Shown here: in pieces, positions 2,645 through 7,170 of the stretch
Numbering within the stretch: the stretch's first letter is position 1
How the letters are laid out: every line of letters starts with the position of its first letter
NCBI GenBank assembly: GCA_021201315.1
Contig: JAJQFG010000132.1
Coordinates: 1 to 39,132 of the forward strand
Source of the DNA: Erysipelotrichaceae bacterium
Lineage (GTDB): Bacteria; Bacillota_I; Bacilli_A; Erysipelotrichales; Coprobacillaceae
DNA: 39,132 bases
Direction: 5' to 3'
The notes under the pieces: generated by a model
The model's database searches: none
What the model was told of the DNA's origin: nothing
Seen by the model: the letters and a program-made list of their open reading frames with translations, nothing else
Position numbers and translations under genes: made by a program

Positions 2645-5263
2645 ATGAAAGAATTAGCTAGTAAGTATGATCATACTTTGGTTGAAGAAGGTAAATACAA
2701 AACATGGATTGATAAAAAATATTTTGAAGCAGGCGATATTTCAAAAAAACCATATTGTATTGTTATACCTCCTCCAAATGTTACTGGTAAACTTCATTTA
2801 GGACATGCATGGGATACAACTTTACAAGATATGATTATTCGTTATAAACGTATGCAAGGTTACGATGTTTTATGGCTTCCTGGAATGGACCATGCAGGCA
2901 TTGCAACTCAGGCTAAAGTAGAAGCAAGATTAAGAGAAGATGGCATTTCTCGTTATGATTTAGGTAGAGAAAAGTTCTTGGAAAAAGCATGGAGCTGGAA
3001 AGAAGAATATGCTTCTATTATTCGTAGTCAATGGGAAAAATTAGGTTTATCTTTAGATTATTCAAAAGAAAGATTTACATTAGATGAAGGCTTAAGTGAT
3101 GCTGTAAAAACAGTATTTGTAACATTATATGAAAAAGGACTTATTTATCAAGGCGAACGCATTATAAACTGGGATCCAGTTCAACGTACAGCATTGTCTA
3201 ATATTGAAGTTATACATAAGGAAATTGAAGGTCATATGTATTATTTCAAATATCAAGTTGTAGAAACTAATGAAACTTTAATTATTGCAACTACTAGACC
3301 AGAAACAATGTTTGCAGATAAAGCCATATTTGTTCATCCTGATGATTCTCGTTATACTCACTTAGTAGGTAAACATGCTATTAATCCAGCAAATGATGAA
3401 GTTTTACCTATTATGGCTGATAGTTATATTGATATGAGCTTTGGTACAGCTGTTATGAAATGTACACCAGCACATGATCCAAATGACTTTGCATTAGCTA
3501 AAAAATATCATTTAGAAATGCCTATTTGTATGAATGATGATGGAACAATGAATAGCTTATGTGGAAAATATGAAGGAATGGATCGATTTGCATGTCGTGA
3601 AGCCTTGGTTAATGATTTTAAAGAACGTGGGGTTGTAGATCATATCGAAGTTCATAAGCATATGGTTGGTCATAGCGAAAGAAGTGGTGCTATTGTTGAA
3701 CCATATCTTTCAAAACAATGGTTTGTGAAAATGAAACCTTTAGCTGAAGCAGCATTAGCTAATCAAGATACTGATACAAAAGTTAACTTTGTGCCACCTC
3801 GCTTTGAAAAAACATTTAAAAACTGGATGGAAAATATTGAAGATTGGTGTATTTCTAGACAATTATGGTGGGGACATCAAATACCTGCCTGGTATCATAA
3901 AGAAACAGGCGAAGTATATGTAGGTAAAGAACCTCCAGCTGATGTGGAAAACTGGAAACGGGATGAAGATGTATTGGATACATGGTTTTCAAGCGCTTTA
4001 TGGCCATTTTCTACATTAGACTGGCCTAATACTGATAGCGAATTATTCAAACGTTATTTTCCAACAGATACATTAGTAACAGGCTATGATATTATTTTCT
4101 TCTGGGTATCACGTATGATTTTCCAATCTTTGGAATTTACAGAACAAAGACCTTTTAAAGATGTTTTAATTCATGGATTGATTCGTGATGAACAAGGTAG
4201 AAAGATGTCTAAATCACTTGGTAATGGTGTAGATCCTATGGATGTTATTGATGAGTATGGTGCTGATGCTTTACGTTTTTTCCTTACAACAAACTCAGCT
4301 CCAGGAATGGATTTGCGTTATAGTCCAGAAAAATTAGATGCTGCTTGGAATTTTATTAATAAGATTTGGAATTCAGCACGATTTGTTTTAATGAATATTG
4401 ATGAAGATATGAAATATGAGGATTTATCTTTTGAATATTTAAATCTTTCTGATAAATGGATTTTAAATCGATTAAATAATGTTATTTTAAGTGTTGATGA
4501 AAACATGGATAAATATGAATTTGTTAATGTTGGTAGTGAATTATATAGTTTTATTTGGGATGATTTTTGTTCATGGTATATTGAATTATCAAAAGTTCAT
4601 TTAAATAGCGATAATTTACAAGAAAAACAAGCAACACAAAATACTTTAGTTTATGTATTAAATGCAATTGTTCGTTTATTACATCCATTTATGCCTTTTG
4701 TAACTGAGGAAATTTATCAATCAATTCCACATTTATGTGAATCTATTTGTATTTCTTCATGGCCACAAGTAAATGATGATTTCAATAATGATACGATTAA
4801 TGATCAATTCCAATATTTAATCGATATTATCAAAGGAATTAGAAATTTGCGTGCACAATATGTTATTAAAAATGCAATTGAAATGACTTATAGTATTCAA
4901 ACTCATGATTTAGCTTTAGAAAACTTATTAAATGATTTAGCACCTTATATTTATAAATTATGTCATTCTCGTTGTATTGGTTATAATGTTGAAACAAGTG
5001 AAAATGTAGCTGTCGAAACGATTAAAGGTGGTAATTCTTTAATTATTGAACTTGGTGACTATATTGATATGGAAGCTGAAAAGAAGAAGCTTGAAGCTGA
5101 ATTAAAGAAACTTGAAAGTGAAATCAAACGTTGTGAAGGTATGCTTTCTAACCCTAATTTTGTAAGCAAAGCACCTCAAGCTAAGGTTCAAGCAGAAAGA
5201 GATAAATTAGAAGATTATAAATCAAAATATGAAACAGTATCTCTAAAACTTAAGAATATGTAA
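2645..5263 (+). CDS. valS: Valyl-tRNA synthetase
   Basis: 872 aa, full length for bacterial ValRS. It charges tRNA-Val with valine in the cytoplasm. Class I signatures are clear: HLGH at residues 51-54 within [15 protein letters not shown] and KMSKS at 520-524. The editing (CP1) domain includes [10 protein letters not shown] and [16 protein letters not shown]. The anticodon-binding helical domain follows, and the last 65 residues form the ValRS-specific coiled-coil arm, rich in Lys and Glu, that contacts the tRNA elbow. The Shine-Dalgarno is GAGGGAG. Expression is expected to be under the T-box leader upstream of the preceding gene. A terminator follows directly. Confidence 0.98.
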
Positions 5264-5264
5264 C

Positions 5265-5291
5265 AAAAGTTCTCAAATTGAGAACTTTTTT
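5265..5291 (+). terminator. Intrinsic terminator after valS
   Basis: AAAAGTTCTC (5265-5274), loop AAATT, GAGAACTTTT (5280-5289), continuing into a T run. It starts two bases after the valS stop codon. Confidence 0.9.
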
Positions 5292-5412: not shown

Positions 5413-5507
5413 GTTTTTTATTTTTTAGAATTTTATTTATTTATACGGGGTTTATAAATATTTCTAATTAATAACTTATGATTTATTTTTATGAAGGAGG
5501 ATGTTCA

Positions 5508-5669
5508 ATGAAAGAATTGTCATTACAAGAAGAATATGAACTTGTTGGTGGAAGTGCTATTGGAACGATTATAATTTATTTACTGTTGGGAGCTGGTATT
5601 TATAAAATTATTAAGAGTAGTTCAGGTAAGATATCTATTCCAAAGCTTGTGAGTACAGAATGGAAGTAA
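5508..5669 (+). CDS. Double-glycine-leader peptide, copy 1 (bacteriocin-like)
   Basis: 53 aa. I start at 5508 because AAGGAGG (5494-5500) sits 7 bases before it; the in-frame upstream ATG at 5478 lacks such a site. The first 15 residues, MKELSLQEEYELVGG, form a typical Gly-Gly leader with hydrophobic residues at positions -4, -7 and -12. Such leaders are cut by C39 peptidase-containing ABC transporters. The predicted mature peptide is 38 aa: a hydrophobic stretch (GTIIIYLLLGAGIYKII), then a basic segment, then ISIPK and a terminal EWK. Two paralogs follow in tandem. Bacteriocin or signalling peptide is inferred from the leader; I do not recognise the mature family. No transporter or immunity gene is in the window. 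Confidence 0.82.
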   Translation: MKELSLQEEYELVGGSAIGTIIIYLLLGAGIYKIIKSSSGKISIPKLVSTEWK

Positions 5670-5684
5670 TTTTGGTGAAATAAG

Positions 5685-5846
5685 ATGAAAAAATTAACAT
5701 TACAAGAGCAATATAATCTTATAGGTGGTACCTGTATACGTTCTGCTATTATTTATGCTTTTTTCAAAAAAAGCTTATATCAAATTATTAAAAGTACATC
5801 AGGTAAAATATTAATTCCTAAAATTATAAGTGCTGAATGGAAGTAA
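5685..5846 (+). CDS. Double-glycine-leader peptide, copy 2 (divergent, with Cys)
   Basis: 53 aa, starting at the ATG of AAGATGAAA, 15 bases after copy 1 stops. The leader is MKKLTLQEQYNLIGG. The predicted mature part begins TCIRSAIIYAFFKKSLYQII and ends in LIPKIISAEWK. By eye it shares 30 of 53 residues with copy 1. The leader and C-terminal SGK-x-x-IPK and EWK are kept, while the centre loses the GAG turn and gains a Cys and two Lys. The Shine-Dalgarno is weak (TTTTGGTGA), so its level may depend on read-through from copy 1. Conservation of the frame and of all landmark residues argues against a pseudogene. It could be the partner of a two-peptide system. Confidence 0.75.
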   Translation: MKKLTLQEQYNLIGGTCIRSAIIYAFFKKSLYQIIKSTSGKILIPKIISAEWK

Positions 5847-5861
5847 AATTATTTTTTAAAG

Positions 5862-5892
5862 TCATATAGTAGAGGGCGCTACATGATGGAGG
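5862..5892 (+). promoter_or_regulatory. Second ATAGTAGAGGG element before peptide copy 3
   Basis: TATAGT (5865-5870) runs into AGAGGG, giving the same 11-mer (5866-5876) as at 5362-5372. A Shine-Dalgarno, GGAGG (5888-5892), follows for copy 3. Either a regulatory or promoter element duplicated with the gene, or simply ancestral leader sequence. Confidence 0.4.
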
Positions 5893-5899
5893 AAATAAA

Positions 5900-6067
5900 A
5901 TGAAAGAATTAACTTTAAATGAACAATATCAACTCACTGGTGGTAGTGCAGTTGCAACAATTATTATTTATGTATTATTAGGTGCTGGAATTTACAAGAT
6001 TATTAAAAGTAAATCAGGAAGAATTTCAATTCCTAAAATCGTAAGTATTGAATGGAAATCTAATTAA
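5900..6067 (+). CDS. Double-glycine-leader peptide, copy 3
   Basis: 55 aa. The start has GGAGG 7 bases upstream. The leader is MKELTLNEQYQLTGG, and the predicted mature peptide of 40 aa begins SAVATIIIYVLLGAGIYKII and ends in EWKSN. It matches copy 1 at 41 of 53 positions by eye, while many codons differ at third positions, which points to an old duplication kept under protein-level selection. The mature part is one hydrophobic helix-like segment followed by a basic region and the invariant ISIPK-x-VS-x-EWK, a layout common to membrane-active peptides. A terminator follows immediately, closing the cluster. Confidence 0.82.
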   Translation: MKELTLNEQYQLTGGSAVATIIIYVLLGAGIYKIIKSKSGRISIPKIVSIEWKSN

Positions 6068-6068
6068 A

Positions 6069-6100
6069 ATGTGAAAGGCTTTATGCCTTTCATATTTTTT
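6069..6100 (+). terminator. Terminator closing the peptide cluster
   Basis: ATGTGAAAGGC (6069-6079), loop TTTAT, GCCTTTCATAT (6085-6095) with one G-T pair, then a T run. It separates the peptide genes from the sporulation/division operon. Confidence 0.88.
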
Positions 6101-6134
6101 ATTATTTGAACATATGATAATTGAGGTGATATTT

Positions 6135-6494
6135 TTGAAATTTACATTAAAAATTATGATATTTAGTTTATTGTTTTCATTGTTTTGTATGGTAAGTTTT
6201 CATTTTGTATGTCAATTGCTGACAAAAAATATTTATGTTTGTCAAGTAGGTATATATGAGATTGAAGAAAATAAGGAAATTAAAATGACGCAATTAAAAC
6301 AAGATGGATATGATACTTATGTTTATTTTAAAAATAATCAATATTATGTTTTATCAATGATAAGTGAGAATTTATCTGAAATTACATTACATGCTGATAA
6401 TGTAAATGGTCTTGTTAAAACTTATCAAGTTGATAATAATACGACTTATGAAGAATTATTAAATCAATTGGAGGAGGGTGAGATAAGTGATTAA
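6135..6494 (+). CDS. SpoIIB-like protein: membrane anchor plus SPOR domain
   Basis: 119 aa from a TTG start. I choose 6135 because GAGGTGA (6123-6129) lies 5 bases before it; the ATG at 6114 has no such site. The N-terminus has one membrane helix (MKFTLKIMIFSLLFSLFCMV). The remainder reads as a SPOR domain: a VCQVGIYEIEENKE strand-helix, GYDTYVYFKNNQYYVLS, and a further helix/strand. SPOR domains bind denuded septal peptidoglycan. In Bacillus, spoIIB (SPOR domain, engulfment and septal localisation) precedes maf-radC-mreBCD-minCD-spoIVFAB, the same neighbourhood as here. The gene overlaps radC by 8 bases. The SpoIIB equivalence is inferred from domain and position. Confidence 0.72.
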   Translation: MKFTLKIMIFSLLFSLFCMVSFHFVCQLLTKNIYVCQVGIYEIEENKEIKMTQLKQDGYDTYVYFKNNQYYVLSMISENLSEITLHADNVNGLVKTYQVDNNTTYEELLNQLEEGEISD

Positions 6495-7170
6495 AAATTT
6501 ACCAATTGAGGAAAATCCACGAGAAAAAGCTTTAGCTCTAGGTATTGATTCATTAAGTAATGTAGAATTACTAGCTTTAATTTTAAGAACAGGTAGTCGT
6601 GACGAATCAGTATTACAATTATCTTCAAGATTATTAAATGAGATTGGCGGTTTTCAACAATTAAGACAAATTACATATGCTAAACTCATTTCTTTAAAAG
6701 GAATTAGTAAAGCTAAAGCTATTGCAGTATTAAGTATATTAGAAATAGCAAAGAGATTAAAAGATATACCTCAATGTGAAAGTATATTACAAACACCGAT
6801 GGATATTTATCTCTATATTAAAAATGAACTCATGTTTTTACCTCAAGAGAATTTTGTTGTTTTATGTTTGGATTGTCGCAATCATGTTATTAAGAAAAAA
6901 ACCATATTCGTCGGTTCGGTTGATATGAGTTTTGTAACGCCAAGAGAAGTTTTTAAAGAAGCTATTGAAATGAATAGTTCTAAAATTGTCTTGGTTCATA
7001 ATCATCCTAGTGGAGATGCCCATCCGAGTCATGATGATTTAGATCTTACAAAACAATTTGTTGAATTAGGGAAAATGTTAAGTATTGAGGTTATTGATCA
7101 TATAATTATTGGATGGAATCAGTATTTTAGTGTTGCTGCAATGAAATTTGTTTTATGTGAAAATGATTGA
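6487..7170 (+). CDS. radC: RadC/YsgA family JAB-MPN protein
   Basis: 227 aa, usual length for the family. It starts with GTG inside the previous gene, preceded by GGAGGAGGGTGAG. A UPF0758 N-terminal segment with PREKAL and a helix-hairpin-helix (about residues 68-90, LKGISKAKA) precedes a JAB/MPN metalloprotease-like domain. That domain's metal-binding motif is H171-x-H173 in VHNHPSGDAHPSHDD. The historical link to DNA repair is weak and the biochemical role is unresolved. Position next to mreC is conserved in Firmicutes, although maf and mreB, usual companions, are missing here. Confidence 0.93.
   Translation: MIKNLPIEENPREKALALGIDSLSNVELLALILRTGSRDESVLQLSSRLLNEIGGFQQLRQITYAKLISLKGISKAKAIAVLSILEIAKRLKDIPQCESILQTPMDIYLYIKNELMFLPQENFVVLCLDCRNHVIKKKTIFVGSVDMSFVTPREVFKEAIEMNSSKIVLVHNHPSGDAHPSHDDLDLTKQFVELGKMLSIEVIDHIIIGWNQYFSVAAMKFVLCEND

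Follow-up and report, generated by a model that had tools for sequence, protein, structure and literature searches.

What are three short tandem genes, each encoding a peptide with a double-glycine (GG) leader, doing next to valS in a member of the Erysipelotrichaceae? Double-glycine peptides are generally taken for bacteriocins or pheromones, and the first-pass annotation of the window (here, the whole 39,132-nucleotide stretch of DNA analysed) leaned toward these roles; in our analysis, the family has the character of a core gene across an entire class. The features on which the argument draws are the following.

2645-5263, + strand: valS, upstream neighbour of the peptide gene, conserved across the class
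5265-5289, + strand: terminator-like hairpin 3′ of valS, bounding the peptide unit upstream
5494-5500, + strand: Shine-Dalgarno sequence AAGGAGG of copy 1, read directly from the sequence
5508-5669, + strand: GG-leader peptide copy 1, 53 aa; leader MKELSLQEEYELVGG at 5508-5552; predicted mature part of 38 aa
5685-5846, + strand: GG-leader peptide copy 2, 53 aa; leader at 5685-5729; the most divergent copy
5888-5892, + strand: Shine-Dalgarno sequence GGAGG of copy 3, read directly from the sequence
5900-6067, + strand: GG-leader peptide copy 3, 55 aa; leader at 5900-5944
6066-6098, + strand: terminator-like hairpin 3′ of copy 3, bounding the peptide unit downstream
6114-6494, + strand: small membrane protein encoded between the peptide array and radC
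6487-7170, + strand: radC, downstream neighbour, conserved

The three peptides are real and under purifying selection. All three open reading frames are present where the first-pass annotation had placed them, and its count by eye of 41 matching positions in 53 between copies 1 and 3 is exactly what we computed. Changes are mostly synonymous, and dN/dS is low: approximately 0.05 for copy 1 vs. copy 3 (with dS near saturation), 0.27-0.33 for comparisons with copy 2, and 0.11-0.29 when orthologues from three further genomes of the genus are compared; the selection on the peptide that had been suspected from third codon positions is thus borne out. The short GG leader, with spaced hydrophobic and acidic positions, is present in all three copies and in nearly all family members. 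The mature part comprises a hydrophobic helix (maximum KD19 of ~2.0-2.1 in copies 1 and 3) and has a net charge of +4 to +6. AlphaFold models the copy 3 precursor as a single helix (residues 6-36), with a mean pLDDT of 67 and an uncertain tail, so that the model is too weak for a fold search. No Pfam or NCBIfam model matched the three window peptides at E<=1, and a PDB sequence search with the peptide profile gave only noise (E 0.08-0.19). The peptides belong to an unannotated family without a Pfam or NCBIfam model, as the earlier description of an unrecognised mature family had it.

The peptide array is enclosed by two terminator-like hairpins, and so looks like a separate transcription unit; three terminator-like sites were found in the region (two of them being both strands of one hairpin) vs. 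0.1 expected in shuffled sequences. A promoter scan of the region was uninformative (13 found vs. 11.1 expected). The small membrane protein at 6114-6494 is conserved between the peptide and radC in the window's family (f1) and its sister family (f2), and itself has no Pfam match; a homologue in G011 carries a SPOR domain above the gathering score. Its place recalls that of spoIIB in B. subtilis.

Conservation within f1 is nearly complete. With copy 3 as the query, 40 of 43 genomes were matched (E down to 2.6e-28 in other genomes), and in all 39 f1 loci fetched, which include the window and one locus from Faecalibacillus faecis, the peptide gene adjoins valS and/or radC; the homologues in related genomes that the first-pass annotation had proposed to look for thus exist, and in the same gene neighbourhood. 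The commonest f1 order is valS-peptide-orf126-radC-mreC-mreD. Among these neighbours (valS, orf126, radC, mreC, and mreD), there are no immunity or export genes, and neither is there a kinase or regulator beside the peptide gene in the conserved neighbourhood, in f1 or in the loci of other families. In two of the three f1 genomes without a peptide match (G012 and G026) valS was not found, leaving G011, with a valS-orf124-radC stretch lacking the peptide, as the sole such case. The window's genus carries an array of three to four copies vs. one copy in most other f1 genomes, and of the three, copy 3 most resembles the single-copy orthologues found in other genera. The gene has been amplified at the level of this genus, most relatives having just one.

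Beyond f1, a profile built from 25 peptides (A1) was run on 395 genomes of the class (E<=0.01) and matched 74 of them, with about four expected by chance; many of these genomes are MAGs, relatives are mutually dependent, and, as for the other profiles used here, the members come from the groups searched, so that the counts include some by-construction matches. The matches fall in f1, f2, f8, f19, f24, and f25, and weakly in f16 and f6. Among 40 loci from other families, 39 have the peptide beside radC and/or valS. In f8/f19 the order is valS-peptide-radC-rplU, or valS-peptide-rplU in six loci without radC. The C-terminal motif takes forms such as SSSGSTTLPGGFKFEWE in f8/f19, and SKSGRISIPKIVSIEWK in f1. 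In many f8/f19 genomes (L111-L138) the peptide frame overlaps the radC start by a few bases, which suggests that the two genes may be translationally coupled. In genus g4 (L059, L063, L064, L067, L069, L072, and L076), a second GG-leader paralogue adjoins the first; it has no S-x-x-G...W tail, ending instead in a short basic C-terminus (e.g., HYSITRNR).

The family also reaches mycoplasma-type genomes. With a wider profile (A2), a code-4 genome (G296) was matched at E 1.2e-7 and others more weakly; when TGA is read as Trp, GG-leader reading frames with a tail such as SSKGEIKTKDGFSAKW emerge. Most f16 matches contain one in-frame TGA, which encodes the conserved Trp and is one reason that these reading frames were overlooked. 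A profile of 22 mycoplasma-type peptides (A3), run on 54 genomes of f5/f16/f23, matched 51 at E<=4e-7 (22 in the profile by construction, 29 independent). Of the other three, G459 has a candidate peptide; G225 probably has no match because 29 kb of the likely region reads N; and within this genome set no peptide was found in G391. The peptide gene, often a neighbour of rplU in mycoplasma-type genomes, lies beside it in f16 genus g103, 3′ of an LspA-like gene in g89, and between an RsmI-like gene and rplU in f5 (the LspA and RsmI names coming from sequence reading). For mature parts alone, hhalign probabilities were 96% (f1-f8), 98% (f2-f8), 91% (f8-f16), and 94% (f16-f5); the direct f1 vs. f5 comparison was not significant (0.7%), and the link runs through f16. 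The rplU bridge in f8 supports common descent with the mycoplasma-type peptides.

A GG leader calls for a C39 peptidase. As first annotated, the window has no C39 gene: its genome has exactly one C39 domain (E 5e-31), which lies on G000:C17, outside the window's contig, so that the exporter proposed for a search elsewhere in the genome was found. The gene encodes a 677-aa C39-ABC protein (Pfam bit scores: C39, 104.9; ABC_tran, 75.4; ABC_membrane, 57) with the Cys/His/Asp triad, Walker A motif GITGSGKS, and signature LSIGQ, i.e., a full C39 + TMD + NBD architecture, and its best PDB matches are PCAT1 (4ry2) and ComA (8hf4). It is followed by ybeY-cdd-era-recO-hydrolase-glyS-dnaG-rpoD. In 11 mycoplasma-type genomes, the C39 gene is likewise followed by ybeY, then by era or cdd, with recO and glyS-dnaG in several, so that the window's genome and the mycoplasmas share the order C39-ybeY-[cdd]-era-recO-glyS-dnaG; an extra reading frame of 118-141 residues often lies between C39 and ybeY in the mycoplasma-type loci L176-L182. 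The best NCBIfam match of the window genome's own C39 protein is the Mbov_0121 family (NF045998; E 2.1e-83, below the cut-off). A tree of 40 C39-ABC proteins, which has some long branches and leaves out the f5 proteins without an NBD, separates the ybeY-linked f1 and mycoplasma proteins (18) from those of f12 and other exporters (22), with split support of 100/99. In f12 (L165-L171; G294:C26:6602-6907 and others), a C39-ABC gene is accompanied by GG peptides whose mature part is of another kind (..GxxDGYxRPxxC), and in L166 and L170 these genes are a few genes away from ybeY; this looks like a change of substrate at the same C39 locus.

In the minimal cell syn3A, gene 0401 encodes a homologue of C39 transporters, and no double-glycine peptide was identified for it, a lack shared by other mycoplasmas (PMC6609329, citing Dirix et al. 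2004); a lipoyl-peptide role was proposed, as a tentative assumption (PMC6609329). The table of that study gives 0405 as glycyl-tRNA synthetase (PMC6609329), so that 0401-0405 fits the C39-ybeY-era-recO-glyS order, and 0401 would be the orthologue of the ybeY-linked C39 protein. A literature search with syn3A locus tags returned nothing.

Leader and protease are inherited together. In f2, the C39 gene lies immediately 5′ of ybeY, its product reduced to 111-127 residues that still include Cys, His, and Asp. A ybeY-linked C39 gene is present in all seven f2 genomes with leadered peptides (G063, G068, G069, G076, G096, G100, and G110) vs. none of the seven with leaderless ones (G052, G059, G073, G075, G077, G088, and G098), for a one-sided p = 2.9e-4 over the 14 genomes; counted by genus, with only ~5 leadered vs. 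3 leaderless genera, the correlation is weaker (1/56, ~0.018, worked out by hand). The leaderless members (MTTSSLLLYVAIVAGIAAIYKLLTSGRGRVSIPGIEMTWGK), of 40-41 aa, match the mature part in length and have their first residue at the GG position. A C39 domain was found in 42 of the 43 peptide-bearing genomes of f8/f19/f24/f25. Counting against the pairing, G011 has kept its C39 protein, yet lacks the peptide at valS-radC. Taken together, it is well supported, and we hold it to be highly probable on comparative genomic grounds, that the ybeY-linked C39 protein is the cognate protease of the peptide family.

Some candidate cases of joint decay were set aside or are given with caution. Co-loss of peptide and C39 in G012 was rejected, as that genome does have the C39 gene, at the start of a contig, and its valS was not found. 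In G272 (L267, 1779-2171, - strand), the peptide leader reads EV instead of GG and the C39 domain gives only a weak double match. Decay of both is possible; decay of the C39 gene, suspected from that weak match, is not claimed, as the gene is absent from the 60 kb fetched. Three f2 leadered peptides (L078, L106, and L142) have GR, GK, or GS at the cleavage site, and are paired with solo C39 proteins without the N-terminal Gln.

What is kept of the C39 protein across lineages is the peptidase rather than the ATPase. The ybeY-linked C39 proteins of f8/f19 (14 examined) have ~390 residues and no Walker A or signature motif, and four f5 proteins (genera g70, g142, and g190) have the C39 domain without an ABC_tran match; in f1 and f16, the NBD is intact. 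The ATPase has thus been lost repeatedly, with the Cys/His/Asp triad retained each time: in the f8/f19 proteins, the f2 solo C39 proteins, and three f5 genera. The N-terminal Gln, which forms the oxyanion hole of C39 enzymes, is missing from the solo C39 proteins, so that their activity is uncertain. Where the motor is missing, the C39 protein might rely on an ATPase from another locus, and in f1 and f16 the intact motor makes export outside the cell plausible.

From these observations we infer how the system may work. The leader of 15 residues (M-K-E-L-x-L-x-E-Q-x-x-L-x-G-G) would recruit the precursor to the cell's single ybeY-linked C39 peptidase, which would cut after the GG and free a mature peptide of ~38-40 residues, consisting of a hydrophobic helix followed by a basic S-x-x-G-[RKES]...[P]...[EKT]-W tail. 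The mature peptide would sit in or across the cytoplasmic membrane and serve the producing cell as a housekeeping factor, the conserved tail being its presumed working end. In the window's lineage, the full ABC motor of the C39 protein may drive the peptide across the membrane; in motorless lineages, cleavage alone would remain. Leaderless members, together with the repeated loss of the export ATPase, make action in the producer's own membrane likelier than a role as a signal.

A pheromone would be cut and exported by the C39-ABC protein and then sensed by a membrane kinase or re-imported, with the tail as the receptor-binding part. The typical GG leader is consistent with this, as are the intact Walker A and signature motifs of the window genome's own C39-ABC protein and its closest solved relatives, PCAT1 and the competence exporter ComA. 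However, the conserved neighbourhood contains no kinase or regulator, the ABC motor has been lost repeatedly, leaderless forms occur, and a mature tail with a class-wide conserved core is unlike known pheromones, which vary between species; nor did the window peptides match the ComC/BlpC-type models PF03047 and NF033214. We regard a pheromone as unlikely, at something like one chance in four. The bacteriocin reading, in which secreted hydrophobic, basic peptides kill relatives, can appeal to the GG leader, hydrophobic helix, net positive charge, and three tandem variants; yet the gene is neither sporadic nor mobile but occupies the same core-gene site throughout, no immunity gene lies beside it, the window peptides match no bacteriocin HMM, and the C-terminal motif of the mature part is conserved rather than diversified. 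Core synteny and the missing immunity gene lead us to reject it as the main explanation, and we give it very little probability. The earlier suggestion of a bacteriocin or a signal is thus not supported in its first part, given a near-universal gene at one chromosomal place with a conserved tail and no immunity gene; its second part survives as the less likely course.

An exported surface or matrix microprotein, resembling the GG microproteins of Synechococcus biofilm, has a precedent in non-antibiotic GG microproteins (PMC4997328), and near-universal presence would fit a structural part. The occurrence of members in reduced genomes of the wall-less mycoplasma type, and in lineages lacking the export ATPase, speaks against it, and we consider it improbable, more so than a pheromone. 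We instead lean, by the narrowest of leads over doubt, toward the whole reading of a housekeeping, C39-matured, membrane-associated microprotein that would be vertically inherited across the class; its housekeeping role in the producing cell, taken singly, we hold to be evenly balanced. With slightly greater assurance, we favour a hitherto unrecognised, ancestral C39-matured membrane microprotein whose gene would belong to the core set in lineages ranging from Erysipelotrichales-type bacteria to mycoplasmas. It would be the substrate so far missing for the minimal cell's orphan C39 protein, which would in essence be a maturation protease that has shed its ABC motor repeatedly. The peptides are, on the genomic comparisons, likely the missing targets of an ancient C39 enzyme without a known mycoplasma substrate. 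The family thereby offers a concrete candidate substrate, at a predictable place near rplU/rsmI, for the C39 protein left unassigned in the syn3A model (PMC6609329), and points to in situ peptide maturation by C39 proteases that have no ABC motor.

Among known systems, the Mbov_0121 family (NF045998) and syn3A 0401 are comparable on the protease side, through the best NCBIfam match and the ybeY-era-recO-glyS order; they differ in having no reported double-glycine substrate, the lipoyl-peptide role being proposed instead (PMC6609329). The class IIb lactobin A/cerein 7B family (TIGR03949) shares the leader type, and one f12 peptide, beside its C39-ABC gene, is just over the cut-off; the window peptides are unmatched, and are distinguished by the conserved S-x-x-G...W mature tail and core-gene location. 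The biofilm GG microproteins of Synechococcus elongatus are likewise short proteins with a GG leader whose role is not killing, but are known as secreted proteins acting outside the cell (PMC4997328). As in the PCAT/C39-ABC exporters (PCAT1 and ComA), the window genome's own protein is a full C39-TMD-NBD protein and the peptides have a typical GG leader; unlike in those systems, peptide and exporter here occupy two separate core loci, vertically inherited across the class, and several lineages no longer have the NBD or have dispensed with the entire transporter part.
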